From a virus: a stretch of DNA of 22,891 nucleotides. The position numbers and the translations under genes are program-made. This document shows, in pieces, positions 1 to 22,738 of the stretch. Every line of letters begins with the position of its first letter. Within the stretch, counting starts at the first letter, position 1. The stretch spans positions 1 through 22,891 of IMG/VR virus record IMGVR_UViG_3300018015_000154. One strand, 5' to 3'. The notes under the pieces are model-generated. The model saw nothing but the letters and a program-made list of their open reading frames with translations. It ran no database searches and was not told the origin of the DNA.

Positions 1-609
1 CGGCCAGCCATAATGCGTCTTCAGCTCGTAGATGGCCCATTGGTCGCCCCCGTTTGCCTGCTTTGCAAGCTTTTGCATGGTCATCCTGTCCATGGGGTTG
101 TCTATCGAAGTGGCAGGTTGCGTTCCAGGCCGCAAGGCCACGGCGCCGACGCGCGCGACGTACTCACACCGCAGGAGGTAGAGTTTAATGGGCTTTGCCT
201 CTTCGTTGGTGCTCTGCATGGCCGCTATGAGGAGCGCTTTGTACTCCAATAATATCGAGCGGTTATCGTCGGGGTCGAGGCTAAGTGCTTGTTTTATTTG
301 GATACGTACAGAATGTATAAATCCCCCCACCATTACCCCCGAAATACCATACCGATCGAGCAAATGTAGGAGGCCTTGGGGGTTTTTGTACCCCAAAAGT
401 TTGGCAAGATGGGCTGCGGAGGCCCTTCTGACCCCCTGGATTTCCACTGTCGGGAACCCGAAGTGCTGCCCTATGACCCTAAACATCTCGTTCGAGGTCT
501 CCCGGTCGATCCTCTCCAAATAGGTTTCTACCGCACTTTTGTTTTCTTCCATTAGGGCTATTTCCAGGCCCGTCATGTTGCTGATCGTAAAATCCGTGTT
601 CTTTTCCAT
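1..609 (-). CDS. Phage protein with BRO-N/antirepressor-like segment (partial, runs off left end)
   Basis: This minus-strand frame is open from an ATG at 607-609 to base 1 (203 codons), so the C-terminus lies outside the window. A Shine-Dalgarno AAGGAG sits 8 nt before the ATG. The protein begins MEKNTDFTISNMTG. Residues 61-88, around RRASAAHLAKLLGYKNPQG, resemble the DNA-binding start of BRO-N type antirepressors, in which an Ala-rich helix precedes a Leu-Gly-Tyr-x-Asn turn. That family is common in temperate phages and often acts in lysis-lysogeny control, but the match is by eye and moderate. The gene is last in the row 2288 to 1 that follows promoter 2437-2465. The frame has good codon structure, whereas the overlapping plus-strand frames look random. 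An unrelated phage regulatory protein is the alternative. Confidence 0.75.
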   Translation of the reverse strand, partial: MEKNTDFTISNMTGLEIALMEENKSAVETYLERIDRETSNEMFRVIGQHFGFPTVEIQGVRRASAAHLAKLLGYKNPQGLLHLLDRYGISGVMVGGFIHSVRIQIKQALSLDPDDNRSILLEYKALLIAAMQSTNEEAKPIKLYLLRCEYVARVGAVALRPGTQPATSIDNPMDRMTMQKLAKQANGGDQWAIYELKTHYGWP

Positions 610-1309: not shown

Positions 1310-1717
1310 TCATACACCGTCGGGCAGGCAAAGTTTCTTCGTAACTTCCCCGGCTTCGCATCCCTTGCAGACGAAGCGGTGCTCTTCCTGGCCCGAATAA
1401 TCAAGGCACTCCCCCCTTTCGATCAGCACGTTATCCTGAGCACGGCACAGTATCTTTTCCGTCTCATGCGTCGGTGTTATCTCTATCGCCTCCCCGTCGC
1501 CTATCAGGTTGGCCGCGACGAGGCGCTTATAGGCGTTATTCCCCTTCTCGGCATACTTAGCGGCCAAGGCGACGGACTGTAGGAACTGGTTGGTCCTTTT
1601 CTCGATCTGGCTGTATACCTTTATCTGAGCATCCAGTTCCTCTCCGGTTATGCGCTTGGCCTTCACATCCGCCAACAACTGCCGCAGTTCCTTTATTTCC
1701 TGCTGAATCAGACCCAT
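1310..1717 (-). CDS. Hypothetical coiled-coil and Cys-motif phage protein
   Basis: The 135-residue product starts MGLIQQEIKELRQLLADVKA. GGAGG lies 7 nt before the ATG. Residues 1-60 form a charged amphipathic helix likely to be a coiled coil. The C-terminal third holds Cys residues (LC, ECLDY, then VCKGC), consistent with a small zinc-binding knuckle. A role in protein-protein or nucleic-acid binding is inferred only. The first 161 bases are also read in another frame as the tail of the upstream 1557-2288 gene. The reading here is better supported because the Shine-Dalgarno is strong and the composition is normal, whereas the overlapping tail looks like an out-of-frame translation. Confidence 0.75.
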   Translation of the reverse strand: MGLIQQEIKELRQLLADVKAKRITGEELDAQIKVYSQIEKRTNQFLQSVALAAKYAEKGNNAYKRLVAANLIGDGEAIEITPTHETEKILCRAQDNVLIERGECLDYSGQEEHRFVCKGCEAGEVTKKLCLPDGV

Positions 1718-2288
1718 GCATAGCCTCCTTGATCTGTTTTATAAGCCGTCTCAATTGCAGCTTCTCGCGTTCAATCTCTATTGTCTGTGGAGTTGGATCT
1801 ATGCCCCGCCGCCTTAGAACGAACTTAAGGTAACAGTCCCGGAGCTCGCCCCGCGATTTGGCGTCGCCTCTGCGGGTAGTCTCTGGATGCCGCTCGTGCG
1901 TTGCGCGGCAGTGCTCGCGGCGCCTTTCCGGGTTCGCGGCGCACCAGGCTTTTTGGATGCGGCGCTTTTTGTCGCGCCATTCCGGATTGCTTTTTCTGTA
2001 TTCCTTTTGCCTTTCTATGGACTGCTTAATGAGTTTCCTGCGGTTTTTAAGGTAATAAGTATGGCTGTGTTTCTTAAGTTTTGCAGCATTCTTTGCTCTC
2101 CATTCCTTAACCTTTTCTTTATTATTCGCGTACCATTCATCATATCCAGCCCGGCAGCATTCTTTGCATTTCCGCCCTCCTCGCCTCATGTACCAATATT
2201 CAGCCGTGAATGGCTTTTCCTTTCCGCATTTTGTGCAGGTTCTTGTTTGATCTATGGCCTTTTTGTAGCCGTCATCCGCTATGGGCAT
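1557..2288 (-). CDS. Zinc-ribbon, basic helical phage protein (HNH-associated type)
   Basis: The product is 243 residues starting MPIADDGYKKAIDQ. A CxxC at 18-21 (CTKC) and a second at 41-44 (CKEC) form a probable four-Cys zinc ribbon. They are followed by a long Lys/Arg-rich helical region with repeated Tyr/Trp-x-x-Asn motifs, then LRDCYLKFVLRRRG and TIEIEREKLQLRRLIK. This layout is common in phage proteins that resemble HNH-endonuclease accessory proteins, but no HNH catalytic motif is visible. The last 53 residues (from about 1717) overlap the next gene and look like an out-of-frame reading of it, so the original stop may have been lost. The gene is preceded by a promoter (2437-2465) and the structured leader element 2326-2394. 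Only a weak AGG lies before the ATG. Confidence 0.7.
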   Translation of the reverse strand: MPIADDGYKKAIDQTRTCTKCGKEKPFTAEYWYMRRGGRKCKECCRAGYDEWYANNKEKVKEWRAKNAAKLKKHSHTYYLKNRRKLIKQSIERQKEYRKSNPEWRDKKRRIQKAWCAANPERRREHCRATHERHPETTRRGDAKSRGELRDCYLKFVLRRRGIDPTPQTIEIEREKLQLRRLIKQIKEAMHGSDSAGNKGTAAVVGGCEGQAHNRRGTGCSDKGIQPDREKDQPVPTVRRLGR

Positions 2289-2325
2289 CTTTGCCTGTCA
2301 CTTGCTGAATTGTGATAATAAAAGA

Positions 2326-2394
2326 TTTCCCCGAGTGTGGAATCGGCCCAGACAAGCCGGCCCAGGCCTCACCACATGGGCGCACTCGGGGAAA
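2326..2394 (-). ncRNA. Structured leader element A (three-way-junction RNA-like)
   Basis: A perfect 12-bp inverted repeat (2326-2337 with 2383-2394, core CCCCGAGTG/CACTCGGGG) encloses two smaller helices: CGGC...GCCG at about 2344-2359 and GCCCA...TGGGC at about 2359-2381. The same arrangement, with shared unpaired bases (GAGGC before TGGGCCGGCTT, read on the minus strand), recurs at 2978-3060. The element lies in the leader of the 1557-2288 gene, about 40 nt after the predicted -10 and 37 nt before the start codon. I do not recognise it as a known riboswitch. It could be a regulatory leader, an attenuator or a bidirectional terminator. Confidence 0.55.
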
Positions 2395-2436
2395 ACATGT
2401 ATTTGTAAATGTACAGTTCTGGTTCATTCCGCAGAG

Positions 2437-2465
2437 AGTCTAACCTCCATAAAACCCCATGTCAA
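2437..2465 (-). promoter_or_regulatory. Sigma70-type promoter for the 2288-to-1 gene row
   Basis: On the minus strand a consensus -35 TTGACA (2460-2465) is followed after 17 nt by TAGACT (2437-2442, 4 of 6 matches to TATAAT). The predicted transcript would start near 2430 and carry element A in a leader of about 140 nt. Weak dyad symmetry (CATGTA...AATG, about 2396-2414) just downstream could be an operator, but is not strong. Confidence 0.6.
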
Positions 2466-2480
2466 GGGGTAATTTGTCGG

Positions 2481-2520
2481 AAAAGTGCGGTAAGGGCTAA
2501 TTATTTTATACCGCACTTTT
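2481..2520 (-). terminator. Intrinsic, probably bidirectional terminator
   Basis: A perfect 12-bp inverted repeat, AAAAGTGCGGTA (2481-2492) and TACCGCACTTTT (2509-2520), surrounds a 16-nt AT-rich loop. Read on the minus strand it begins 18 nt after the stop of the 2539-2928 gene and ends with a T run, as expected of an intrinsic terminator. It separates that unit from the next promoter at 2437-2465. Confidence 0.75.
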
Positions 2521-2538
2521 CGCAAATATGCGGTACGG

Positions 2539-2928
2539 TCACCGGCCGCCAGGCCCCCTCGGTGCCAGACCGCCCATGACCAGCGTGAGCTCCGGCCGGA
2601 ACCGGTCTGCCTCGGGGGCGCCCTCGGGCCTCCAGGGCTCCGCTAAGAGATGTGCGGCGGCGTAGGCATCGGCCTCGTCTTCGGTCATGCTTTGTGTCCT
2701 GCGGACATGGAAGGCCGAGGCGGCCTCCTCGATCTTGAAGAGGGGGACGAGGACATCGTATAGAATCTCCTTCGGCCAGACTATCCAGCCATTCGGCCGG
2801 GCCAGGCCGTAGAGATTGAGCCGAAGATTGTTCGCGTTGGCCCTGACGATACGCTTGAGCCTGTCACAGAGCGGGCAATGGTGAATATGCTCGCACCGCC
2901 CCTTTACCACTCCTTGCAGTTGCCTCAT
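2539..2928 (-). CDS. Small Cys/His zinc-motif phage protein
   Basis: The 129-residue product starts MRQLQGVVKGRCEHIHHC. The start is set by GGAGG seven nt before the ATG at 2926-2928; a longer frame from 2970 lacks such a site. Residues 12-21 (CEHIHHCPLC) form a compact Cys/His cluster likely to bind zinc. The middle contains GLARPNGWIVWPKEILYDVLVPLFK and the C-terminal 40 residues are Pro/Arg-rich and probably disordered. I do not recognise the family; the zinc motif suggests nucleic-acid or protein contact. It has its own promoter (near 3133-3161), its own structured leader (2978-3060) and a terminator just downstream, so it forms a monocistronic unit. Confidence 0.75.
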   Translation of the reverse strand: MRQLQGVVKGRCEHIHHCPLCDRLKRIVRANANNLRLNLYGLARPNGWIVWPKEILYDVLVPLFKIEEAASAFHVRRTQSMTEDEADAYAAAHLLAEPWRPEGAPEADRFRPELTLVMGGLAPRGPGGR

Positions 2929-2977
2929 ACTGCACCTCCGATAGTTTTTAGCCTCGGTTTTAGCCGGCACGCAAAAA

Positions 2978-3060
2978 GCCCGAGTGCTGCTACGGCTCTA
3001 TCGGAAGCCGGCCCATGCCTCGCGGCCCGGTCAAAAACCGGTTTTATGAGCGCACTCGGG
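2978..3060 (-). ncRNA. Structured leader element B (second copy of the three-way-junction RNA-like element)
   Basis: A 9-bp outer stem (2979-2987 CCCGAGTGC with 3052-3060 GCACTCGGG) encloses CGGCT...AGCCG (about 2993-3010) and GCCCAT...ATGAGC (about 3011-3051, one mismatch). The second helix is extended in this copy by an inserted CCGGT-CAAAA-ACCGG hairpin. Stem sequence, junction bases and order match element A at 2326-2394, while loops and linker lengths differ. On the minus strand the final stem is followed by CTTTTT, so it may also work as a terminator or attenuator. It lies 50 nt before the start of the 2539-2928 gene. Confidence 0.55.
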
Positions 3061-3120
3061 ACACTTCAGCCCTTAAAATAGAAAATCCCTTTCGTGAGGC
3101 CAAGGGCAGCCCCGATAGAT

Positions 3121-3161
3121 CGTAGCAATAATAGGCTACGGCAGCTTAGAGGCTATGTCAA
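3121..3161 (-). promoter_or_regulatory. Promoter and dyad operator for the 2539-2928 unit
   Basis: On the minus strand TTGACA (3156-3161) is followed after 17 nt by TAGCCT (3133-3138), or after 22 nt by TATTAT (3128-3133). A perfect 6-bp dyad, CGTAGC (3121-3126) and GCTACG (3135-3140), straddles the -10 region, as expected of a repressor operator. The -35 and spacing match the promoter at 2437-2465. The rest of the interval to 3190 shows no gene. Confidence 0.45.
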
Positions 3162-12817: not shown

Positions 12818-13206
12818 GTTTCTTCCTCCTGGACGATGAAGGCTGCCTGGTTGGCGCGGTCGAAGACCCAGACGAAGTTCGACTGCTCGCCGAAGGGGAC
12901 CTCCATGAAGAGGATCTTCTTCTTGGTCTCGAGATTGACATCGAAGGGCTGGACGGATTTGTCGGGCAGCTCCTCGCCGAAGCCTTCGAAGTCCTGGAGG
13001 ATGGTGTCCAGCACGTCGTCGGAGATCTTCTCTTCGTCGTAGACATCACGGCCATTGATCTTCTTCTTGTGCGCGTTGCGGATCTTCTCGACGAGGGCCT
13101 GCGTGCGGGCCCTGATCCTGAAGCGCACCTTCGCGCCCCATATCTGGCGCTCGTACCACTCGCCGTCCGGCGGCGTCTCCACATTAATGTCGCGGAATAC
13201 AAGCAT
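12805..13206 (-). CDS. Tail assembly chaperone (G-type, zero-frame product)
   Basis: The 133-residue product starts MLVFRDINVETPPDGEWYER. AAAGGAG lies 6 nt before the ATG. It is small, acidic at the C-terminus, and follows the tail tube gene directly, the usual place of the chaperone. The segment PFDVNLETKKKILFMEVPFG is a beta-rich core. It ends EEETKNS just past a slippery site that sends a fraction of ribosomes into the -1 frame. The normal product is predicted to bind the tape measure during tail assembly. No tape-measure gene follows here, which is odd for this module. Confidence 0.8.
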   Translation of the reverse strand: MLVFRDINVETPPDGEWYERQIWGAKVRFRIRARTQALVEKIRNAHKKKINGRDVYDEEKISDDVLDTILQDFEGFGEELPDKSVQPFDVNLETKKKILFMEVPFGEQSNFVWVFDRANQAAFIVQEEETKNS

Positions 13207-13221
13207 ATTCGCTCCTTTTGT

Positions 13222-13437
13222 TGTTCAACGTTCAATGTTCAAGGTTCAATGTTGCCCCCTTTGGGGGCGTTCAAGGTTCTATGTTCAATGTTCAATGTTG
13301 CCCCCTTTGGGGGCGTTCAATGTTCAAAGTTCAAAGTTCAATGTTGAAAACCTCCCAAGCCCTGAACCCTGAACCTTGAACCTTGAACAGCCCTTTGTTG
13401 AACCTTGAACATCCTCTATGCTCCCTGCTCCCCGCTT
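13222..13437. repeat. Composite heptamer repeat with two palindromes
   Basis: Runs of GTTCAAN heptamers (13222-13345) are interrupted twice by the palindrome GCCCCCTTTGGGGGC (13254-13268 and 13300-13314). After a short spacer the runs reverse as TTGAACC heptamers (13362-13411), so the whole can fold into a long hairpin. A GCTCCCT-type run (13412-13437) closes it. It fills the gap between the tail tube stop and the chaperone start; no gene is seen in it. Confidence 0.85.
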
Positions 13438-14719
13438 ATCCTGCCGCCGTGGCTATCTTGTTCCCTATATTGACCATAATGCTGCCATACGTCGAGTCCT
13501 GGAGCACCTGGATGTCGCCTTCCTCGCCCAGGAACTTGTTGTCTATCTTGACAGGCGCCTTCAGGATGTTGCAGCGGGGGAAGATCAGCTCGACGTAGTA
13601 GCTCTTGCCGGCCTCGAAGGTCGAACCGGTAGCCTTGATGTGGACGCCGAAGTACTCGTTGTCCGCGATGGCCTGCTGCAGGATGTACTCGCGGGCCTGC
13701 CGGTCGAGCTTGAGGCTCTGCTGCCTGCCCTGGCGCTGGGCGAAGTTGGCGTAAGTGCCGGTGCCCCCGGGGCGGTACTCCACGTCCACCTGGTTCTTGA
13801 AACTGTGCTCGATGGTGGTGATCTCGCTGTCGATCGTACGGCCGCCGACGAAGGCACTGCCGCTCCACATGCCGCCGAGCGTCACGACGAGGTCGGTGAC
13901 GCGGAGCGGCGGTTCGACGACGTAGACGGGGAATGAGCACCAGGCAGGCTCGACGGGCGTGTAAAGGACCTGGTAGGTGGTGCTTGTCGCGGGAACGCCG
14001 GGGGGGGTGATGGTGATGACGGCCGGGACCGCGCCGGAGACTACCGAGAAGGAGACTTCGTCCCACTCGTTCGGCGCTGACGGGTTTACCACCCTTATGC
14101 GGTGGACGTTCTGGAGCCTGGTGGGCGCGTCGGCGCCCTGGACCCCGTTGGCCGCGAGGGTCAGGGTCGCCGCGTCGTAAGCGGCCGTGATTGTCTCCTC
14201 CGTCATGTTCGCGGTATATTTCCCGGTGCCCTTGAGGGCGGTGACGCACTTGGCCCAGGAGTCCTTGGTGAAGGTGGAGGTGATCGAGTCGACGAACATG
14301 GAGGCCATGCGCCACTTCCAGATCGTCTTGCCCATGCGCTGGGCGACGGTCATGGAGGGCAGGTTCATCTGGGCGGTAGGCATGATGGCGTGCTGGTAGC
14401 CTCCGCCCCAGGCGGCGGGCGTGTCTATCCCAAGGCCGTAGGCGTAGGAGAGGAGAAAGTCCTGGGCCTTCGCCTTGTTGAAGGTGAGGTTCATGGAAGA
14501 CTCTGCGCCGAGGTTGTAGACGATGTCGGGCTCTTCCATCCCCGTCAACTCGCCCGCGTCTGTCTCGCGCTTGGGCGTCAGGACCATCAGGTCGCCCTGG
14601 TCGACCATCATGGTGTGGGAAAGGGCCTGCTCCGTGTTAAGGGCCGTCTCCTGCAAAAGCAGGGAGACGGCGAGGAGGTTAAAATCGGGCTTGTAGATGC
14701 GCTGGGTGTCATAGCTCAT
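13436..14719 (-). CDS. Phage tail tube (major tail) protein
   Basis: The 427-residue product starts MSYDTQRIYKPDFNLLAVSL with GAGGTG before the ATG. It is soluble and rich in beta structure, with Ig-like stretches (VVSGAVPAVITITPPGVPA and TTYQVLYTPVEPAWCSFPVY). Its C-terminal half is typical of long tail tube proteins: ITTIEHSFKNQVDVEYRPG, then YVELIFPRCNILKAPVKID. The gene immediately precedes the frameshifting chaperone gene, the usual order in siphophage and myophage tails. It follows the linker-rich 14870-15199 gene across a heptamer repeat. The stop lies inside the edge of the next repeat. A sheath protein is less likely because of the length and the neighbours. Confidence 0.75.
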   Translation of the reverse strand: MSYDTQRIYKPDFNLLAVSLLLQETALNTEQALSHTMMVDQGDLMVLTPKRETDAGELTGMEEPDIVYNLGAESSMNLTFNKAKAQDFLLSYAYGLGIDTPAAWGGGYQHAIMPTAQMNLPSMTVAQRMGKTIWKWRMASMFVDSITSTFTKDSWAKCVTALKGTGKYTANMTEETITAAYDAATLTLAANGVQGADAPTRLQNVHRIRVVNPSAPNEWDEVSFSVVSGAVPAVITITPPGVPATSTTYQVLYTPVEPAWCSFPVYVVEPPLRVTDLVVTLGGMWSGSAFVGGRTIDSEITTIEHSFKNQVDVEYRPGGTGTYANFAQRQGRQQSLKLDRQAREYILQQAIADNEYFGVHIKATGSTFEAGKSYYVELIFPRCNILKAPVKIDNKFLGEEGDIQVLQDSTYGSIMVNIGNKIATAAG

Positions 14720-14737
14720 GGGTCACCTCTCTTTTTT

Positions 14738-14869
14738 GTTCAAGGTTCAATGTTCAAGGTTCAAAGTTGCCCCCTTTGGGGGCGTTAAAACCATTCAAGG
14801 TTCCATGTTCAACGTTCAATGTTAAATTCCTCTCTTTCCTCAACTTTGAAACTTGAACCTTGAACATCT
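14738..14869. repeat. Composite heptamer repeat with one palindrome
   Basis: GTTCAAN heptamers, the palindrome GCCCCCTTTGGGGGC at 14769-14783, a second GTTCAAN run, a pyrimidine-rich spacer (CCTCTCTTTCCTCAAC) and then TTGAACC heptamers. The spacer is nearly identical to the one at about 15811-15826, showing that the element is more than a simple tandem repeat. It separates the 14870-15199 gene from the tail tube gene. Confidence 0.85.
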
Positions 14870-15199
14870 CTATGCTCCTTGCTCGGCACCCGGCGCTTCC
14901 TGACCCGTCGCTTTCGTCTCGGGCGTAGGAGGCGGCGGAGGAGGCTCCGGGGCTGCCCCCGCTCCCTGCTCCATGCTCCGTGCTCCCTGCTGCTTTTGCT
15001 GCCCCTGCTCCTTGCTCTCTGCTCCATGCTCCATGCTTCCGTCAGGGGGATCGGGCACCTGCTCGAAGCGGCGGGCCTCTTCGGGCGGGATATCGGCCGG
15101 CGCGTATGTCCGGTCGAGATGGTACTGCCTGTTGGCGAAAGGTCCGTCGACGACCCGGAAGTTCTCCTCGTTGGCTTTGAGCCTGTAGCGCGTCTCCAT
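14870..15199 (-). CDS. Small phage protein with repeat-derived C-terminal linker
   Basis: The 109-residue product starts METRYRLKANEENFRVVDGP. The first 50 residues look like a normal small phage domain (FANRQYHLDRTYAPADIP and EEARRFEQVPD). From about residue 52 the frame is a translation of GCTCCAT-type heptamers (DGSMEHGAESKEQGQQKQQG), then a poly-Pro stretch, and it ends on another heptamer run (EAPGAEQGA). The intergenic repeat has therefore expanded inside a coding frame and made a low-complexity tail. It lies 3 nt after the tail-terminator-like gene and before the tail tube gene, so a tail-assembly role is likely but unproved. Confidence 0.65.
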   Translation of the reverse strand: METRYRLKANEENFRVVDGPFANRQYHLDRTYAPADIPPEEARRFEQVPDPPDGSMEHGAESKEQGQQKQQGARSMEQGAGAAPEPPPPPPTPETKATGQEAPGAEQGA

Positions 15200-15202
15200 C
15201 TG

Positions 15203-15667
15203 CTATCCTCCCGGAATGTCCCGCAGGGCGTCTATCTCGACGCTCTTAACGAGAAAATAGACGGGGGCCTGCGTGCCCTCGTCGTTGATCGCATCTGCCG
15301 GTCTTATGTCCTGGACGCCGTCCGGGAATACCCCCGAGATGCGGAAAGAAAGGAGGGCGTTCTCGATCAGCTCCTCGAAGGCCATCAACTGCGACTGCGC
15401 GGCGTACGGGTCCTTCTGCTGGAAGCCCGCGTAGAGCATGGCCGTGTACGCTTCCTCGATTTGAAAATCCATGTAGCGCCCCGGCACCTTCTTCGGGCAG
15501 GTGAGCAGGCAGATCGGCAGATCGGCCGTCGATATCTCCACCCTGCGGCGGAAGGTGCGCAGGACAGTGAGGGCCTTCCCCCACGCGGCCTGGCAAAAGG
15601 CGGAAAGGGGGGCGTCCGACCCGAGGGCCGTAACTACGGCGTCAAGCGCCGGGTTGATGCTGGTCAT
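15203..15667 (-). CDS. Tail-terminator-like phage protein
   Basis: The 154-residue product starts MTSINPALDAVVTALGSDA. A GGGGCAG lies before the ATG at 15665-15667; a TTG at 15688 would add 7 residues. The core (ADLPICLLTCPKKVPGRYM, EEAYTAMLYAGFQQKDPYA, AFEELIENALLSFR) has the mixed alpha/beta pattern of small tail-completion or terminator proteins, and its position two genes before the tail tube fits. It follows a heptamer repeat and a run of tiny genes, so it may begin its own module. Assignment is by layout and pattern, not a firm family match. Confidence 0.6.
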   Translation of the reverse strand: MTSINPALDAVVTALGSDAPLSAFCQAAWGKALTVLRTFRRRVEISTADLPICLLTCPKKVPGRYMDFQIEEAYTAMLYAGFQQKDPYAAQSQLMAFEELIENALLSFRISGVFPDGVQDIRPADAINDEGTQAPVYFLVKSVEIDALRDIPGG

Positions 15668-15682
15668 CGCTGCCCCGGCAGC

Positions 15683-15891
15683 GAGCAAGGAAGCATGGAG
15701 CCCGCGCCTCCGGCGCTCTGGAGCATGGAGATGTTCAAGGTTCTATGTTCAATGTTCAATGTTGCCCCCTTGGGGCGTTCAAGGTTCGAGGTTCAAGGTT
15801 CAATGTTAAATTCCTCTCTTTCCCCAACTTTGAACCTTGAACCTTGAACATCCGTAAGCCTTGAACCTTGAACCCTGAACCTTGAACATCA
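15683..15891. repeat. Nested GCTCCAT and GTTCAAN composite repeat
   Basis: GCTCCAT-type units flank the palindrome GCGCCTCCGGCGC (about 15702-15714). They are followed by GTTCAAN heptamers, a shortened palindrome GCCCCCTTGGGGC (15764-15776), further GTTCAAN units, the conserved pyrimidine spacer and two runs of TTGAACC heptamers up to the stop of the 15892-16041 gene. No gene is seen inside. Confidence 0.85.
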
Positions 15892-16041
15892 TTACTGCGC
15901 GGCGTTCGCCTGATCGGTGATTGCCTTGAGCGCATCCGCCGTAGGGGCTGCCGCAAGCTGGTCTTTCAACGTCTGGTTTTCGGCCTTGAGCGCGTTGAAC
16001 CTTGCGATCAAGCCCTGTACTGCCTGAGTTAATTCGTCCAT
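15892..16041 (-). CDS. Tiny coiled-coil protein (49 aa)
   Basis: The product reads MDELTQAVQGLIARFNALKA, then a heptad-like AENQTLKDQLAAAP and ends in ITDQANAAQ. Leu spacing gives a short coiled coil. GGAGG 9 nt before the ATG at 16039-16041 supports translation. It is the last of the four tiny genes after the lysis-type proteins; similar small helical proteins are common there and may be lysis or assembly accessories. Function not recognised. Confidence 0.65.
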   Translation of the reverse strand: MDELTQAVQGLIARFNALKAENQTLKDQLAAAPTADALKAITDQANAAQ

Positions 16042-16054
16042 GATATATGCCCTC

Positions 16055-16330
16055 CTATTGGGTTTGGTTTACTGCGTCCGTAAGCGCTTTCATCGCCTGG
16101 TCGGCGGGAGCGGCGGGAGCGGCCGGTATGGCCGGCTGCTTAGGCTGCGCCCACATCTCGATGAGATCCCGGACCTTGTCCGTCTTCACGCTCGGGTGAT
16201 AGATCGCGATGATCTTGAGGATGAAAAGGACGGCGCCGGGGATTGCCGCCATGAACAACGAATAGTTGGCTGCCACGTAGCCCATCCACTGGTTTGTAAA
16301 GAGGGCCGGTAAGGCCGCTACGGGTGGCAT
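16055..16330 (-). CDS. Small membrane protein, possible holin
   Basis: The 91-residue product starts MPPVAALPALFTNQWMGYVA. One strong membrane segment (about 20-43, NYSLFMAAIPGAVLFILKII) is followed by a Pro/Ala-rich hydrophilic tail (QPAIPAAPAAPADQA). One-span proteins beside endolysin genes are often holins or membrane accessories. The ATG lies 4 nt after the stop of the 16335-16499 gene. The holin idea rests on topology and neighbours only. Confidence 0.65.
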   Translation of the reverse strand: MPPVAALPALFTNQWMGYVAANYSLFMAAIPGAVLFILKIIAIYHPSVKTDKVRDLIEMWAQPKQPAIPAAPAAPADQAMKALTDAVNQTQ

Positions 16331-16334
16331 GGGA

Positions 16335-16499
16335 CTACACCGGGTCCGTCGGCACGGCGGCCTGGGCTTGCTGTATCTGCGCGATGAGCTGGGCCTGCGT
16401 CTCGGCGGTCAGGTTCTTGTTGTTCTGGATCTCCGTTACTATGGCCTGTGTCAACTGCACAAGCCCTCCCACTGCGATTGCTAAGGTTGCCGGATCCAT
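16335..16499 (-). CDS. Tiny helical protein (54 aa)
   Basis: The product reads MDPATLAIAVGGLVQLTQAI, then VTEIQNNKNLTAETQAQLIA and ends VPTDPV. GGAGG is 8 nt before the ATG at 16497-16499. A hydrophobic N-terminal helix and a Gln-rich amphipathic helix are visible. It lies 4 nt before the possible holin gene and 33 nt after the 16533-16733 gene. Role unknown; a small lysis accessory is possible. Confidence 0.65.
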   Translation of the reverse strand: MDPATLAIAVGGLVQLTQAIVTEIQNNKNLTAETQAQLIAQIQQAQAAVPTDPV

Positions 16500-16532
16500 A
16501 ATACGGTCCTCCTTTAAAGTGCCCCGAAGGGC

Positions 16533-16733
16533 TTAAAACGCATAGTCCATGCTCGACGATGCCGTATTGTTGATGATGTCGAGCTTGATGGTAATGAATT
16601 GCGTGCGCTGGTCCTCTCCTACCTCCGCTTCCTTAAGAGCCTGGACGAGCGCCTTCAATTCGGGAGAGAGGATCACCATTCTCGCCAAGGCGTTTAGCGC
16701 ATCGCTGTACTTCATCACCGCCGCTCCGTCCAT
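16533..16733 (-). CDS. Small hypothetical helical protein (66 aa)
   Basis: The product starts MDGAAVMKYSDALNALARMV and continues ILSPELKALVQALKEAEVG, a pair of amphipathic helices. The ATG directly follows the TGA of the lipoprotein gene 16734-17117, with GGGGTGA just before it, so translation is coupled. No membrane span or Cys is present. Function not recognised. Confidence 0.6.
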   Translation of the reverse strand: MDGAAVMKYSDALNALARMVILSPELKALVQALKEAEVGEDQRTQFITIKLDIINNTASSSMDYAF

Positions 16734-17117
16734 TCACTTCACCCCTTGAATAAACGTTGCTACCTGGGTCACGAGCGCCGCGAGTTGCATAGTCAGTGTC
16801 CCGATGTTGGCCTGAATCTGGCCCTGCTTCGCCGCGTCGGTCGTCTCGATGGCGAGTATGAGCGCGTCGCCGAGGGCCTTGTAGGCCGTCACCGCCTGGG
16901 CGTAGATCGTGTTGAACTGCGCCTCCTGCGCCGCGCTGAGCTTCCCTGCCGCCTTCAGTGCCACGGCGCTTGCATGGACCTGGGAGAGCACGGAGCCCGT
17001 CGCCTGGTAGGAAGTGACGGCTACGCTCTCCGTCTGCTGGGTCGTCGCGCACGCCGAGAGAAAAGCCATGCTAAAAACGATGAGCACGAACACTGCACAA
17101 AATCTAAATAGTCTCAT
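16734..17117 (-). CDS. Predicted phage lipoprotein, possible spanin-like role
   Basis: The 127-residue product starts MRLFRFCAVFVLIVFSMAFL and ends its signal in LSAC (Cys23), a type II signal peptide. The mature part is helical and Ala/Gln-rich (ATTQQTESVAVTSYQATGS and similar). GGAGG 4 nt before the ATG at 17115-17117 decides this start over a longer frame from 17228. It sits between a cysteine hydrolase and small lysis-type proteins; an outer-membrane spanin is one idea, but typical Rz1 proteins are shorter and Pro-rich. Confidence 0.7.
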   Translation of the reverse strand: MRLFRFCAVFVLIVFSMAFLSACATTQQTESVAVTSYQATGSVLSQVHASAVALKAAGKLSAAQEAQFNTIYAQAVTAYKALGDALILAIETTDAAKQGQIQANIGTLTMQLAALVTQVATFIQGVK

Positions 17118-17125
17118 AAATCCTC

Positions 17126-17617
17126 CTATAGTTTGATGGGCGGCCCGAAGATCGCCAATTTTGAAAGGTCGCCCGGTGTCAGAATATCCCCCTGGATTCC
17201 GTAACATCTTTGAAGCATTTCCGAGCATACGGTATTCTTGGGATTAATTTTTACCCGCTCCACGGCCAGCTTGAAAAGGTCCGTGTAGTCGTAACTCATG
17301 CCGAGGAATTTCAGGGCACAAAGCCCTATCTCGTGTCGCTTGGCTTCGTATTCGGGCTTCAGCGGAAAGACCGTACACTTCTTCGTCTCCCTGGCCAGCT
17401 TCCCGGCGAGGTCATACATCACAACGCCCGTTGCTTCGGCCTCCACGGTGAGAACAATGTCAGGGTATTCCGAAAAGACCATCACCATCCCGGCATGACA
17501 ATACTCGCTGTGCGAGAGCTTTTCTATTGCTTCGGACAAGAGGTCTTTGCCGCTGTAGAGAAGGCAATCGCCAGCCCGAAGGGTGGATTTAATGCGGTTG
17601 AAGGTTGTAAGGTCCAT
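17126..17617 (-). CDS. NlpC/P60-like (YiiX-type) cysteine hydrolase
   Basis: The 163-residue product starts MDLTTFNRIKSTLRAGDCLL. RAGDCLLYSGKDLLSEAIE, then LSHSEYCHAGMVM (His41), an acidic VEAEATG (59-64) and TVCSEMLQRCYG (Cys131) give the His and Cys dyad of permuted papain-like YiiX/YebB proteins. They cleave amide bonds in peptidoglycan peptides or lipids. The start is set by AGGAG, which lies in the AGCGAGGA edge of a heptamer repeat. It follows the SleB-like gene in the lysis region, so a second wall or envelope hydrolase is the best inference. Confidence 0.75.
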   Translation of the reverse strand: MDLTTFNRIKSTLRAGDCLLYSGKDLLSEAIEKLSHSEYCHAGMVMVFSEYPDIVLTVEAEATGVVMYDLAGKLARETKKCTVFPLKPEYEAKRHEIGLCALKFLGMSYDYTDLFKLAVERVKINPKNTVCSEMLQRCYGIQGDILTPGDLSKLAIFGPPIKL

Positions 17618-17625
17618 CACTTCTC

Positions 17626-17803
17626 CTCGCTACGCTCGAAGCAGCATGGAGCACGCTCGCTGTGCTCGCTCTGGAGCATAGAGCATAGAGCAGAGAGCAA
17701 AAGGCCGTTCAAGGTTCGGTGTTCAATGTTAAAACCCCGTCTGTTTTTAAACCTTGAACCCTGAACCTTGAACATCTCTATGCTCCATGCTGCCTTTGCT
17801 GTT
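17626..17803. repeat. Nested composite repeat: GCTCCAT outer arms, GTTCAAN inner arms
   Basis: The outer left arm (GGAGCATAGAGCATAGAG, then CAGAGAGCAAAAGGC) pairs with the outer right arm (CTCTATGCTCCATGCTG, then CCTTTGC) around a GTTCAAN/TTGAACC inverted repeat (about 17707-17774). The whole fits a long nested hairpin. It lies between the SleB-like and NlpC-like genes; its left edge supplies the latter's ribosome binding site. Confidence 0.85.
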
Positions 17804-18310
17804 CTATCGCCCGCGATAGAACAAATGCTTGCCGATCTGCGCCGGCGATGCCGGCTGCAACTTGTCCGCCCAGGAAGGCTTCGGGCTGCCCTGGGCGTAG
17901 TACATGAAAACGTCGCCGGTCGAGAAGGGGCTCGGGATCCTGCCGGCCCAGACATCCCGGAAAACCGCGAGACACTGAAAGAGTGCGCCGGCGTCTGCGG
18001 GGCCCCACTTGAACGGCGTGAGGACGTGCGTCTTCGGGTCGGCAAAGGCGTCGAAGTTCTGGGCGATGGCCCGGGCCTTGAGATACTCGGGGTTGTCGAC
18101 CGAGAGGTAGCAGCTGAAGGCCGCCTGGTGAAAGCAGACCGTAGCCACGTCGTTGCCCTGAAAGCTCGGATGGTCGACGCGGTTCTTGACTACCCAGGCC
18201 ACGGCGACTTTGCCTTCCGTGCTCTCCCCGCCGGCCTCGAGGAAGACCGTCTCCCCGCCGATTCGGTCCGCAGAAAGCGCATGGAAGTATTTCATATCTT
18301 CCGGTCTCAT
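17804..18310 (-). CDS. SleB/CwlJ-type cell wall hydrolase (endolysin)
   Basis: The 168-residue product starts MRPEDMKYFHALSADRIGGE. The segment TVFLEAGGESTEGKVAVAWV (Glu25 at the usual catalytic position) and the later AAFSCY (63-68) match the SleB/CwlJ hydrolase core, a lytic transglycosylase-type fold that cuts the glycan strand. It lacks a signal peptide, so it would need a holin or similar for release. GGAGG before the ATG lies in the arm of a palindrome (AACGCCGGAGGCGTT, 18311-18325). It heads the lysis-type cluster with the membrane protein 18474-18752 just upstream. Confidence 0.8.
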   Translation of the reverse strand: MRPEDMKYFHALSADRIGGETVFLEAGGESTEGKVAVAWVVKNRVDHPSFQGNDVATVCFHQAAFSCYLSVDNPEYLKARAIAQNFDAFADPKTHVLTPFKWGPADAGALFQCLAVFRDVWAGRIPSPFSTGDVFMYYAQGSPKPSWADKLQPASPAQIGKHLFYRGR

Positions 18311-18473
18311 AACGCCTCCGGCGTTAGCATGGAGCAGAGAGCATGGAGCAGAGAGCGTGGAGCTTTAAAAACTCTATGCCCTATGCTTTCTTTGCTCTTT
18401 GCTGCGCCTTTGGCGCGGGCTCCATGCTCTATGCTGTCTCTGCTGTCTCTGCTGCTTCTCGCGTCGGAGGGTT
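18311..18473. repeat. GCTCCAT heptamer array with GC-rich palindromes
   Basis: A palindrome AACGCCTCCGGCGTT (18311-18325) is followed by GGAGCAGAGAGCAT-type units (to about 18362). After a short spacer comes an oppositely oriented GCTCTAT/GCTCCAT run that contains GCGCCTTTGGCGC (about 18405-18417). The two runs can pair. No GTTCAAN array is present in this copy. No gene is seen inside. Confidence 0.8.
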
Positions 18474-18752
18474 TCATTTCGTTAACCTCTGCAGTACCTT
18501 GTCTATCTTGCCGTCGAGCTTCTCCAGGCCGTCTTTCATATCCTTTCTCAGTTCCCCTACCTGGCCGACCCAATTACCCTTACATTCTGTGCAAGTGTCC
18601 TTAAACACGACCTTAGCTTCCATTTTCTCTTTCCACTCCTCCAGGGCCTCGACCTTAACCTTGAGGATGTTAATGGTGATCAGAGATCCTATTGCCCCGC
18701 CAAAGATTGCTACGAGAAAACCAACCGCTATTTCTACGATCACCGTTGCCAT
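18474..18752 (-). CDS. One-span membrane coiled-coil protein, holin-like
   Basis: The 92-residue product starts MATVIVEIAVGFLVAIFGGA. One membrane segment (about 3-28) is followed by a charged coiled coil (VKVEALEEWKEKMEAKVVF), a CTEC pair and another amphipathic helix (GLEKLDGKIDKVLQRL). GGAGG lies 5 nt before the ATG at 18750-18752, better than the longer frame from 18776. Its place between the tail fibre and the endolysin fits a holin or lysis regulator. The order membrane then coiled coil is the reverse of XhlA-type proteins. Confidence 0.7.
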   Translation of the reverse strand: MATVIVEIAVGFLVAIFGGAIGSLITINILKVKVEALEEWKEKMEAKVVFKDTCTECKGNWVGQVGELRKDMKDGLEKLDGKIDKVLQRLTK

Positions 18753-18793
18753 CTCATCCTCCGCGTGCCGCTTCAAGGGTGGTCATGGGGGCC

Positions 18794-21595
18794 TTATCCT
18801 GCCGTCCCTGCTATCAGTTCATCCGGGGTCACAAACTGCGCGTCCCCACTGTTGACCATCGAGGCGAAAGCATCGGCGTCGAACATGCCGTTTGCTAATG
18901 AGTTAGTTGAGTTGACATGCCCGCCCCAGGACCACAAGCCCCTGCTCTTAATCAATGCATAGACCCTCTGCCCCCATGCCGGGTCGGGTGTCGAAGTAAC
19001 CGAAACATTTGTGCCCGCGCTGGCAAACGTCATCATGTTCGTGCCGGCTACCGCGTCATGCGCCGTAGGGTAGATATTACAGGTCTGGTTGGTGAGCATT
19101 TCGGCCCAGTATATCGCGCCTGCCGTAATCCCCGTAGGCATCACATCCCCGCTGAATTTGACGGGCTTCGGATAGCCGATTGTCCATGTAACGGTAGAGC
19201 CGAGGGTGACGACATTCGTTGATGTGTTGACCGTCGCCGTTAAGGTTTGGAGACCGGCAGCGGAATAGACCCATGAAGCGAAAGGGGCATACCGCTGGTC
19301 CCAGAGAGACGTTATGTGAGTAGACCCGCCGAAGTTCTGATGGCCCACAACTATATCGGCATACTGGCCGAGGAAGGTATAATGGTCATAGGAGGTCCAC
19401 CCGTAGTCACCCACAAGGCTCATCACCCGCGCTCTCGGCAGGTTATTTGCGGCAAAATAGTTCTGTGCATAAGCTATGGCCGCAAGTTTTTGCGAGGCCG
19501 TGAGGCTTATCCAGTTTGTCGAGCTTGGCTGCGCCGTGTAGAGGCCAAGGCTGTGACCCGATGCAATGAGGTCTTGAAACTGCGCGAGCGTCAGATGGCT
19601 CGCCACACCCACTTCCAGCGGGCAGGTGTTGAACGTTACGGACGCCTTGCCGTGAGCGCCGGATGCCGTAAGCGGCAGGGAGCGCAGATAGGCCGCGAAT
19701 GCATATTGTTGAGAATACGTGCCGTCCGTATAGGCAAGGACGTACCCGGTAGAGTTGCGGCTTTTGAAGGCAAGTAATTCATCGAACGTGACCGATGGTA
19801 TGTCGCCTATCGCGTTGACGGTGAGATAGTAGTCTATCTTTGAGACGGTTGTAAGTGTAAACCCCGAATCCTGAGAGTCTGGATCATCGAAAACAATAGG
19901 CGCTTCGTACCAGGAAACACCCGGCGTGTGAGTCGAGTCCCAGAGAATGTACGTCGCGGTCTTTGCTCCGCCGTCCGTCAGAATGACTTTAATTCCCGTG
20001 ATCCTCAAAAAATCTGTAGTCTGCCCTGTAGTGCCCGGCCAGATGTAAAAGCGGAGCATTCCCTGGCAGCCGCTAAGATTTGTTGCCGAGATGGTCTTGT
20101 AAAAATGGTTGTTAGTCGCCGTCCCGTCAGGCGTTGCCTCTAATGCCTGTGTGCCGACCTTATAATTGGTCGCGTCTGCCGCAAGGGTCGTCGTGGCAGC
20201 CGTCCAGCCACCCGTAGAGGAAAAGGTTTCCTGATAGATTTGCTGGCCGACATAGTTGTACCGGGAGGTAAGGGTTTTGCGATCCATGAGAGGCTGCACG
20301 TCATAGCCCATGGCTTCCGTGCCGACGAAGAAATAGCCGCCCCCGATCCAAGCCGTCACAGTGGCGTTGTTCCGAAAAGCGAGGCCACCCGTCGATGTGC
20401 CTTCACGGTATATTTGGCTCGTAAAGCTGTCAGTCGAATAGAAGGTCAGACCGCCCCCGCCGTCATTTGAGCCTTGCTGAATAAGTAATTGGCCAGCAGA
20501 AGCACTCGGGATTATGCCTACGCCCACCTGCCCGTTGAGGATGTAAAGGGTTTCTGTCGCGTTATTTCTGAAGGTCAATGCTCCGGAACTTGTCGCCTTG
20601 CGGTATATCTGCGCTGTGTTGCCGCTGAGGGACTGGAGGACGATACCACCGTTGCTATCATCGGAAGGCTGGACCTGCAAAAGACTGTAGCCGCCGACGC
20701 CCCAAGTATGGGAGCCGGTAGACTGAAGGGGGCGGCCCGCCGTGGTCCCTGAATCGGGGACCGTGCCGGAAGGGGGAGCTTGCCAAGACGAGTTTCCGTT
20801 GCTATCGGACGTCTGAACTTTTCCTGTGCCTGCGCCCGTCGCTAAATCAAGTGTTGCACCGCCTGATGGTGCCGTCAGGGTAAGCGCCCCGCCAAGAAAA
20901 GTAAACGTCCTTGGTGTCGTGCCACCGGCAAGGGAAAAGCCATCGGCGTTGGATGTCAAAGTAAGACCGCTAACCGTTGTCCCGCTTATCGTCCCTCCAG
21001 TGATGGCGACATTTGCCGAATTGTTCACCGGCTGCCCGTTTGACCAGCCGCCGACAGAGGCAGAGACAGGAAAATCGGCCGAGGTGAAATACCCGAGGGC
21101 GGCCTTGAGCTGGGCGGCGTTGAGGAATGACCAGGTGCCGGCGGAGAGGGAAGGATAGCCGGAGAGCGCGGAGGAATCTACGCCAATCCCGCCCTGGGCG
21201 GGCGTCACCTGGGACTCCCACGTGGGGGGTGCGGCAGGGCCGTTCGAAGTAAGCACCTGTCCCGCTGAGCCGGCCCAATTCCCGTCAAGGACCTCCCAAT
21301 CGGCCCCTATCCAGTCCGGATCGGCGACAACAGCGGCGGGGAACAAAAAGAGCAGAGAGAATAAAAGTAGCATGGAGCTCGCGCCTTTGGCGCTCCGGAG
21401 CAAACGGCTGTTCAATGTTCGATGTTCAACGTTCAATGTTGCCCCTTCGGGGCTGTTCAAGGTTCTATGTTCAACGTTCAATGTTGAAACCCTCGTCTTT
21501 TTCCCAACCCTGAACCCCGAACCTTGAACCTTGAACAGTTCTTGGGAACTTTGAACTTTGAACCTTGAACTTTGAACATTCCTTTTAGCTTTCAT
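18794..21595 (-). CDS. Large tail fibre with NodB-like domain
   Basis: The frame encodes 933 residues from an ATG that overlaps the preceding stop (ATGA at 21592-21595). The first 74 residues are translated heptamer repeat. A hydrophobic leader then begins at Met75 (SSMLLLFSLLFLFPAAVVA), which is an alternative start (21373, 859 residues). Counting from there: an N-terminal fibre region (GQVLTSNGPAAPPTWES), two related beta modules (about 258-355, QIYRKATSSGALTFRNNAT and QIYREGTSTGGLAFRNNAT), a jelly-roll-like part (375-535), and a NodB-like region (540-690) with YTDG at about 549. The motif-2 position reads GHSLGLYTAQ and lacks the usual histidines. Predicted role: host surface glycan binding, perhaps processing. 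Confidence 0.75.
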   Translation of the reverse strand: MKAKRNVQSSRFKVQSSQELFKVQGSGFRVGKKTRVSTLNVEHRTLNSPEGATLNVEHRTLNSRLLRSAKGASSMLLLFSLLFLFPAAVVADPDWIGADWEVLDGNWAGSAGQVLTSNGPAAPPTWESQVTPAQGGIGVDSSALSGYPSLSAGTWSFLNAAQLKAALGYFTSADFPVSASVGGWSNGQPVNNSANVAITGGTISGTTVSGLTLTSNADGFSLAGGTTPRTFTFLGGALTLTAPSGGATLDLATGAGTGKVQTSDSNGNSSWQAPPSGTVPDSGTTAGRPLQSTGSHTWGVGGYSLLQVQPSDDSNGGIVLQSLSGNTAQIYRKATSSGALTFRNNATETLYILNGQVGVGIIPSASAGQLLIQQGSNDGGGGLTFYSTDSFTSQIYREGTSTGGLAFRNNATVTAWIGGGYFFVGTEAMGYDVQPLMDRKTLTSRYNYVGQQIYQETFSSTGGWTAATTTLAADATNYKVGTQALEATPDGTATNNHFYKTISATNLSGCQGMLRFYIWPGTTGQTTDFLRITGIKVILTDGGAKTATYILWDSTHTPGVSWYEAPIVFDDPDSQDSGFTLTTVSKIDYYLTVNAIGDIPSVTFDELLAFKSRNSTGYVLAYTDGTYSQQYAFAAYLRSLPLTASGAHGKASVTFNTCPLEVGVASHLTLAQFQDLIASGHSLGLYTAQPSSTNWISLTASQKLAAIAYAQNYFAANNLPRARVMSLVGDYGWTSYDHYTFLGQYADIVVGHQNFGGSTHITSLWDQRYAPFASWVYSAAGLQTLTATVNTSTNVVTLGSTVTWTIGYPKPVKFSGDVMPTGITAGAIYWAEMLTNQTCNIYPTAHDAVAGTNMMTFASAGTNVSVTSTPDPAWGQRVYALIKSRGLWSWGGHVNSTNSLANGMFDADAFASMVNSGDAQFVTPDELIAGTAG
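21345..21591. repeat. Composite heptamer repeat inside the 5' end of the tail fibre frame
   Basis: TTGAACC-type runs (21505-21590), a spacer, GTTCAAN-type runs with GCCCCTTCGGGGC (21441-21453), then GCGCCTTTGGCGC and GCTCCAT-type units (about 21363-21405). All of it stays open in the tail fibre frame. The final GCTCCATG contains the alternative ATG at 21371-21373. Confidence 0.85.
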
Positions 21596-22083
21596 TCGCA
21601 GCTCAACTGGATGGACGTTATCGAGCCGGAGGTGATCGCGCTCGTCACGTAGAGCGACGTGATGTGGTGCATCGTCGCCAGCTTGGTGGCTCCGGCGCTC
21701 GTTATCGTCAGGTTCTTCGTTGCCGCGCCGTTCGCGTCCTCGTTGACGGTGACCGCGATATTGACCGGCGAGCCGGCGGTATCGATCTCCAGGACCTTCG
21801 ACCCCTTGCAGTACTGGACGTTGACGGCGGTCTCACTCGCCCCGGATGACGTCTGGTTCGTGGCCAGCACCCAGGAGTAAGAGTACGTGTCGTGCCGCTG
21901 GACCTCGGTCATGGAGACGTTGCCGGCGAGGGCGGGGCAGAGAGCCAAGAGCAGCAAAAGCAGCATGGAGCAGGGAGCAAAAGCCTGTTCAATGTTCAAC
22001 GTTCGACGTTCAAGGTTAAAACCGCTCTTTTCCCAACTTTGAACTTTGAACCTTGAACCTTGAACATCCCCTGACCTTCTCAT
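21592..22083 (-). CDS. Small late protein with internal hydrophobic leader and repeat-derived N-terminus
   Basis: The 163-residue frame starts at an ATG that overlaps the gp10-like stop (ATGA) and has AAGGAG 5 nt upstream, a strong signal. Residues 5-38 are translated repeat (GDVQGSRFKVQS and NLERRTLNIEQ). Met40 then begins a hydrophobic leader (MLLLLLLALCPALAG). The remainder, about 109 residues (YSWVLATNQTSSGASETAV, then KVLEIDTAGSPVNIAVTVN), is beta-rich with a final Cys. It may be exported or membrane-anchored. I recognise no family; its place between gp10-like and tail fibre genes suggests a virion or tail-tip part. Start at Met40 (21966) is the alternative. Confidence 0.65.
   Translation of the reverse strand: MRRSGDVQGSRFKVQSWEKSGFNLERRTLNIEQAFAPCSMLLLLLLALCPALAGNVSMTEVQRHDTYSYSWVLATNQTSSGASETAVNVQYCKGSKVLEIDTAGSPVNIAVTVNEDANGAATKNLTITSAGATKLATMHHITSLYVTSAITSGSITSIQLSCE
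21944..22079. repeat. Composite heptamer repeat at the 5' end of the 21592-22083 frame
   Basis: TTGAACC heptamers next to the gp10-like stop, a spacer (CGCTCTTTTCCCAAC), GTTCAAN heptamers with one GTTCGAC variant, then GCTCC-type units ending in the GCTCCATGCTG that begins the hydrophobic leader. It lies between the start codon and the leader of the same frame. Confidence 0.85.
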
Positions 22084-22604
22084 TTCGTCTCCTTTTCGAT
22101 CTCTTCCTCAAAAATCGCCTTTATCGCGCCGCCTGAGTCGAAGCGCGTGAGGCCGTCCGTGAGGTAATCCCTGGGACCGTACTTGCGGGACGAGCCGGTG
22201 CCCTCGCGGATGACGCGGGCATAGAGGGCGGAATCGAAGATGACGGTCTCGAAAGGCCCGGCGGTGAACGAGCCGGCAGGACCGGATTTCGCTTCACCCG
22301 GATGGAGCCAATCGAGGAGCTGCCTCAGGAAGCCTGTCCGGGCAGGGACAGGGTAGGCGCCCGCGCCTTCGTAACTTCGGAACATGACCTTATCGCCGGA
22401 TTTCTTAGTGAAGCCGACATAGTCCGTGCGCTGGTCTTTCGATGCGCCGCCTGCCCCGCTGAGCCAATACTGGGCGTTTTCGAAGACGCCGGTGCCTACG
22501 CGCGTGAGGGCGCGGTCTATGGCGGCGGGGATCCTCGCGGCGTGGGCATCGAGGTTCTCGATCACTACCTTGTCGCCTTCGACGGTCACGCTTATGTCGA
22601 GCAT
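22080..22604 (-). CDS. HK97 gp10-like phage morphogenesis protein (main copy)
   Basis: The 174-residue product starts MLDISVTVEGDKVVIENLDA. It shares its N-terminus and its C-terminal core (YPVPARTGFLRQLLDWLHPG, then ETVIFDSALYARVIREGTGS) with the 4278-4769 product. The region between (ASKDQRTDYVGFTKKSG) is longer here. The family joins the head to the tail in siphophages. Its Shine-Dalgarno, GAGGA, comes from the AGCGAGGA edge of the repeat upstream, and its stop overlaps the next start (ATGA). Its place before tail genes supports its being the functional copy. Confidence 0.8.
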   Translation of the reverse strand: MLDISVTVEGDKVVIENLDAHAARIPAAIDRALTRVGTGVFENAQYWLSGAGGASKDQRTDYVGFTKKSGDKVMFRSYEGAGAYPVPARTGFLRQLLDWLHPGEAKSGPAGSFTAGPFETVIFDSALYARVIREGTGSSRKYGPRDYLTDGLTRFDSGGAIKAIFEEEIEKETK

Positions 22605-22611
22605 CAGGGTT

Positions 22612-22738
22612 CCTCGCTGCGCTCAAAACCGTTCAAGGTTCGATGTTCAACGTTCAAAGTTGAAAACCCCCTGTTTCATAAAGCCGTTCAATGTTCAAAG
22701 TTTCTAACCTTGAACCTTGAACCTTGAACATTGAACGC
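22612..22738. repeat. Heptamer repeat upstream of the gp10-like gene
   Basis: TTGAACC-type runs (about 22707-22738), a second GTTCAAN pair, a spacer (CCCCCTGTTTCATAAAG) and GTTCAAN heptamers with one GTTCGAT variant. Its last bases (minus strand GAGCGCAGCGAGGA) provide the ribosome binding site of the gp10-like gene. Confidence 0.85.

Follow-up and report, generated by a model that had tools for sequence, protein, structure and literature searches.

This locus carries two copies of one structure, each placed between a promoter and a gene. The window analysed here (an IMG/VR virus record, 22,891 bases long) contains, on its minus strand, two homologous three-way-junction elements, E1 at 2326-2394 and E2 at 2979-3060, as an earlier note on this DNA had described. 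Common to both are an outer stem P1 (CCCGAGTG/CACTCGGG), a helix P2 (GCCCA or GCTCA/TGGGC), a helix P3 (CGGC..GCCG) and the stretch GAGGC-N-TGGGCCGGCTT; the extra hairpin reported for one copy belongs to E2 (3027-3043), and the TTGACA-17-TAGNCT promoters and the element-to-start-codon distances of 37 and 50 nt are likewise as first described. The explanation favoured here is that E1 and E2 are, very probably, C4-type antisense RNAs, in which a short RNA derived from a gene's own transcript would silence the gene downstream. All parts of E2 are textbook C4-type, and E1 is weaker, as may be seen from the following features:

3156-3161, minus strand: -35 box (TTGACA) of the E2 promoter
3133-3138, minus strand: -10 box (TAGCCT) of the E2 promoter, spacer 17 nt
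3122-3127, minus strand: E2 a1 (TGCTAC), 5 nt past the -10 box, complementary to linker a'
3110-3119, minus strand: E2 b1 (TCTATCGGGG), complement of loop b' (decoy/target copy)
3075-3106, minus strand: E2 leader hairpin (CCCTT..AAGGG) and then a U-rich run; its 5' part extends the anti-core complementarity
2979-3060, minus strand: E2, very probably a C4-type antisense RNA; stem P1 CCCGAGTGC/GCACTCGGG, P2 with GNRA hairpin 3017-3026, extra hairpin 3027-3043, P3 2993-3010
2998-3007, minus strand: E2 b' (CTTCCGATAG), 5' side and loop of P3, antisense to b1 and b2
2988-2993, minus strand: E2 a' (GTAGCA), last P3 base and linker, antisense to a1 and a2
2973-2977, minus strand: U-tract, terminator-like, immediately 3' of E2 stem P1
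2949-2952, minus strand: E2 a2 (GCTA)
2935-2944, minus strand: E2 b2 (CTATCGGAGG), which includes the Shine-Dalgarno of ORF2
2539-2928, minus strand: ORF2 (129 aa), which matches no family and is the gene that E2 is predicted to target
2480-2521, minus strand: terminator separating ORF2 from the E1 promoter, a 13-bp inverted repeat without mismatches plus a T-run
2460-2465, minus strand: -35 box (TTGACA) of the E1 promoter
2437-2442, minus strand: -10 box (TAGACT) of the E1 promoter, spacer 17 nt
2426-2430, minus strand: E1 a1 candidate (GGAAT), 6 nt past the -10 box
2418-2422, minus strand: E1 b1 candidate (CCAGA), short
2326-2394, minus strand: E1, very probably a C4-type antisense RNA; stem P1 TTTCCCCGAGTG/CACTCGGGGAAA, P3 2344-2359
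2349-2355, minus strand: E1 b' (TTGTCTG)
2339-2343, minus strand: E1 a' (ATTCC), linker
2315-2325, minus strand: U-rich run (TCTTTTATTAT) 3' of E1 stem P1
2291-2297, minus strand: E1 b2 (CAGGCAA), where the Shine-Dalgarno of ORF1 putatively lies; 7 pairs, one of them G-U
1557-2288, minus strand: ORF1, which opens the E1 operon; Cys-rich, with weak similarity to endonuclease VII
1-609, minus strand: 5' portion of the gene for a ~325-338 aa protein, starting near 609, further along the same-strand gene run after E1

An RNA on the minus strand is favoured because two pairs in each element are G-U there and mismatched on the plus strand. Folding beats that of dinucleotide shuffles in each element (z -3.9 and -3.3), and the junction is the predicted minimum for E2 and one of two near-equal folds for E1 (-38.2 vs -38.4 kcal/mol). 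Both copies are found also on two near-identical contigs. A coding reading of E1 (as a 51-aa ORF at 2272-2427) was dropped because there is a stop in the same frame of E2, and readings of the elements as ribozymes or put-type antiterminators found no support. The E2 -10 region lies inside a short inverted repeat (CGTAGC..GCTACG, 3121-3140), which is a possible operator. Elsewhere in the window (13200-22700), short repeats of the GTTCAATGTTCAAGGTTCAA type recur between and at the ends of many late genes and translate as FNVQGSRFKVQ.

A scan with 4227 Rfam models, riboswitch families included, gave no match for E1 or E2 in the window. The family had at first been called an unrecognised one, which holds insofar as no Rfam model matches it, but it is built like the C4 antisense RNA of phage P1. 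Homologs were sought, along the lines that the earlier note had suggested, with a covariance model (R1) for which E1 and E2 were the sole input; it was run on genomes from the phyla of two MAGs (titled Nitrospirae and Deltaproteobacteria) that carry relatives of the phage's helicase gene; phylum labels of members rest on the titles of the centre MAGs of each search. In one phylum R1 matched 6 of 396 genomes; a second phylum gave 4 of 395 (of these four, the last two are weak, and one of those two is false). Its best matches were strong (up to 61.6 bits, E = 1.1e-11 per genome). A model refined from 11 sequences (R2) then matched 16 of 230 genomes in the class of G387 and 12 of 345 in the phylum of G718, with one marginal match among 199 genomes from the phylum of an Acidobacteria MAG and none among 200 from the phylum of a Dechloromonas MAG. 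The roughly 40 homologs are nearly all in Nitrospirota- and Desulfobacterota-type genomes and, judging from neighbouring genes, probably in prophages. L276 and L286 (the latter inside a GidA-like gene) were treated as false and left out of the member set, and L315 is probably false; the working alignment (A6) holds 40 sequences.

A later pattern scan added one further viral member (L296); exact-pattern scans of viral contigs and genome contigs returned near-identical contigs or chance matches only, and no new element copies were found with relatives of ORF1 and ORF2 or in 1.3 Mb of helicase-related phage loci. In the window itself, a PAPS reductase/DUF3440-type gene adjoins a SNF2-family phage helicase (7689-8894 and 8894-10306, minus strand). 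A pattern selected on P1 led also to a different leader at L174:2489-3167 (minus strand), which was rejected as a member, being probably unrelated though alike in logic: two copies about 600 bp apart precede paralogous genes of ~100 aa in an integrase-bearing element, a compensatory change distinguishes their P1 stems, and part of a loop can pair without mismatch, over 11 and 13 nt, with the region around the start codon.

Across the 40 members, 95% of cells are paired and 21 of the 23 pairs show double-sided changes, counts that lean towards the covariance model because the alignments were made with it (the antisense tests given below are independent of that). Double-changed cells number 188, vs 47 in shuffles (0/500), and none of five covariation measures was reached by any of the 500 shuffles; when partners are slid by one column, pairing halves and the signal collapses. 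The first 11 sequences gave the same outcome. Because the covariation extends across other genomes, the homology of E1 and E2 goes beyond chance, and the early reading of them as a functional structured RNA—phage-borne, regulatory and upstream of small genes—is borne out by homologs with compensatory changes. In nearly all members a GNRA hairpin caps P2 and a U-rich tail follows stem P1. Such a tail is what plain intrinsic terminators with elaborate loops would have, but the elements are sited between promoter and gene, and neither a conserved, covarying inner structure nor complementarity to a member's own target would be expected of a terminator; this explanation is thus very improbable. From the earlier suggestion of a terminator or attenuator, then, an attenuator-like element survives, whereas plain termination is refuted as a sufficient account.

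The P3 loops (b') are hypervariable, with 39 distinct loops in 40 members, and each tends to fit its own targets rather than those of other members. Scored against a member's own ribosome-binding site, b' reaches 281.8 vs 193.8 ± 6.0 (0/20,000 permutations), shuffled loops attaining at most 203; against its own upstream copy near the transcript 5' end it reaches 291.5 vs 209.5 ± 5.8 (0/20,000). A b' score of 7 or more is seen in 26 of 40 members vs 3.7% of mismatched pairs. The linker a' behaves similarly when members with a clear b2 match are considered (100 vs 64 ± 4 for a1 and 101 vs 73 ± 3.8 for a2, both 0/50,000); an initial test, whose windows were set loosely, gave weak signals (p 0.05 and 0.011). 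Of 29 members tested, 17 have a1 4-8 nt past the -10 box of a TTGACA/TAnnnT-type promoter (control 2.5%), and this spacing suggests that transcripts probably begin with a1-b1. At the other end, b2 lies over or next to the Shine-Dalgarno in 23 of the 28 members with a match. Within the window, E1 matches its a1 and b1 over 5 nt only and its b2 with a wobble, and its downstream region has no clear a2; a cross-comparison matrix shows that the loops of E1 and E2 match each other's targets poorly, and the two recognition codes are different.

About a third of the members (L283, L284 and L325, for instance, near integrase or unrelated genes) have no clear b2 match. Integrase-like genes adjoin the RNA in L283 (there beyond a small ORF), L284, L320, L323 and L325, several of them without a clear b2. 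These members are possibly orphan antisense RNAs whose targets lie at other loci, or decayed copies.

These patterns also bear on whether the elements could be leaders that bind a metabolite or a protein, either as riboswitches or through autoregulation by a zinc protein, as had been proposed. A three-way junction with a conserved core and the Cys-rich ORF1 would suit such a leader; the loops that would form its pocket, however, are hypervariable and track each gene's own ribosome-binding site, the downstream genes are unrelated among members, and no Rfam family matches. We give this idea next to no credence, and autoregulation by a zinc protein in particular fails, for what lies downstream varies among homologs and a loop-complementary ribosome-binding site is their sole common trait. 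Nor does each element precede a Cys-motif gene, as had been thought: ORF1 is one (endonuclease VII-like, PHROG E = 8e-4), but ORF2 matches no family.

In members and in E2 alike, the leader continues past b1 as a near-complete antisense of the P2-P3 core. Across members, the leader:core duplex is predicted at -28.1 vs -20.2 kcal/mol (0/20,000), and the full-length E2 leader is predicted to fold in this way. One may ask whether the locus is a switch that works solely in cis: pairing of the P3 loop with the 5' copy would give anti-termination and leave the ribosome-binding site open, pairing with that site would block it while the P1 terminator forms, and no free RNA would act in trans. The presence of all three segments on one transcript and the specificity of the duplex across members speak for this; yet the layout is that of phage P1 C4, whose action in trans is established (PMC8546580 and PMC12197685), and the exposed, conserved a' and b' and a self-contained RNA with its own terminator suit trans action. 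We regard a cis-only switch as quite unlikely.

For a C4-type antisense RNA, we infer the following course of events. The transcript would begin with a1-b1 and proceed into the three-way-junction RNA, and stem P1 together with the U-tract would end most transcripts there as a short RNA. The P3 loop b' and linker a' of this RNA would pair with b1-a1 at the transcript 5' end and also with b2-a2 at the downstream gene's ribosome-binding site; because b' and a' are antisense to that site, the short RNA, presumably acting in trans, would silence translation of read-through transcripts, while the cis duplex between b1-leader and core could withhold it. Its likely use would be to keep the prophage quiet, favouring lysogeny, and to give the cell immunity against phages whose a/b code is identical, since the genes that would be silenced in relatives are often antirepressors or a small ORF before one. 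Alternatively, the antisense RNA might direct transcription termination instead of translational repression, as does the CI RNA of phage P4 with seqA and seqC. Many members have a leader hairpin with a U-run between b1 and the RNA, a U-tract follows stem P1, and P4 CI pairs with upstream and downstream copies (PMC4825925); but the position of b2 at or adjoining the Shine-Dalgarno in those 23 of 28 members indicates translation. Termination in place of repression is therefore unlikely, though the two may coexist.

Antirepressor-class genes lie immediately downstream in 10 members (Bro-N in 4, AntA in 2, pRha in 2, and ORF6N and P22_AR_N), and in 2 further members a small ORF is followed by a Bro-N-like gene; other direct downstream genes encode a resolvase, HNH, integrase or unknown proteins. 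In the window, neither direct target (ORF1 or ORF2) is a recognised antirepressor. The ~325-338 aa protein whose gene starts near 609 is also encoded at L326:6024-7040 and matches nothing in Pfam or PHROG. Two relatives were found in other genomes (L282 and L299, 44% identity each), and in each case a C4-type RNA and then a small ORF precede the gene; the protein is a candidate new antirepressor or immunity effector. An AlphaFold model of the 325-aa form (pLDDT 35) is uninformative.

The family looks like a previously uncatalogued set, numbering at least some 40 RNAs, in prophages of Nitrospirota and Desulfobacterota, and Nitrospirota is the likeliest guess for the host of the phage carrying E1 and E2. 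It would extend C4-type antisense immunity logic to two further bacterial groups, it points to candidate new antirepressor-like genes (the ~325-338 aa protein included), and it provides some 40 natural antisense RNA/target pairs with readable recognition codes, from which immunity groups could therefore be predicted.

Among known systems, P4 CI immunity RNA (seqA/seqB/seqC) is alike in layout, in that a single transcript yields the antisense RNA and both of its targets, upstream and downstream, but CI works by transcription termination (PMC4825925). The sar RNA of P22 and IsrK of Gifsy-1 are also prophage RNAs that set antirepressor or early-gene expression; compared by description only, no C4-like junction with paired a/b targets is given for them in the available portions of PMC12197685 and PMC4825925. 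The closest counterpart is C4 of phages P1 and P7, which has three stems with loops a' and b', is cut by RNase P, and covers a ribosome-binding site with b' (PMC5320573); it acts in trans on the antirepressor gene ant (PMC8546580 and PMC12197685), and the catalogued C4-type RNAs come mainly from Proteobacteria and the phages of that group (Weinberg 2010, PMC2864571).

The Rfam C4 model RF01695 (gathering score 45 bits) gave no match in the window and none above cut-off in the homolog genomes (phage P1 c4, the positive control, scored 68.8 bits), c4-a1b1 (RF03163) matched neither the window nor those genomes (phage P1 control 51 bits), and R2, conversely, did not match phage P1 C4. Unlike C4, the E1/E2 family has a GNRA rather than a UUCG loop on P2, a stem P1 of 9 bp rather than about 17, an a' usually of 4-6 nt rather than 7, an a1 usually 5-6 nt past the -10 box, and a U-tract immediately 3' of stem P1 that phage P1 lacks; and it occurs in Nitrospirota- and Desulfobacterota-type genomes, with none in the 200 sampled from the Dechloromonas phylum. 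Because of the missing Rfam match, the GNRA loop and the 3' stem running into a U-tract, the family is named C4-type and placed outside RF01695, even though it would work like C4. One might go further and propose that this class of phage immunity RNA evolved independently, with the logic of C4 but its own fold and a built-in intrinsic terminator, widespread in Nitrospirota and Desulfobacterota, targeting several kinds of gene and present in one phage as two RNAs of different recognition codes; we think this less likely than not. Likenesses to C4 are as follows. Both have a P1/P2/P3 junction with a P2 tetraloop, b' in the P3 loop and a' in the linker before the 3' strand of stem P1; both have a1-b1 in the 5' leader, a T-run leader hairpin between b1 and the RNA, and a2-b2 at the ribosome-binding site. 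Complementarity of b' to b1 and b2 is clear in E2 and weak in E1, that of a' to a1 and a2 is found for the family and for E2 (for E1 with a1 only), and the phage P1 C4 locus shows the same a/b pattern in the same complementarity test. Several members repeat the gene order of phage P1 (icd, then ant), with a small ORF and then an antirepressor. Whether C4 and the E1/E2 family share a common ancestor or have converged is thereby raised as a testable question.
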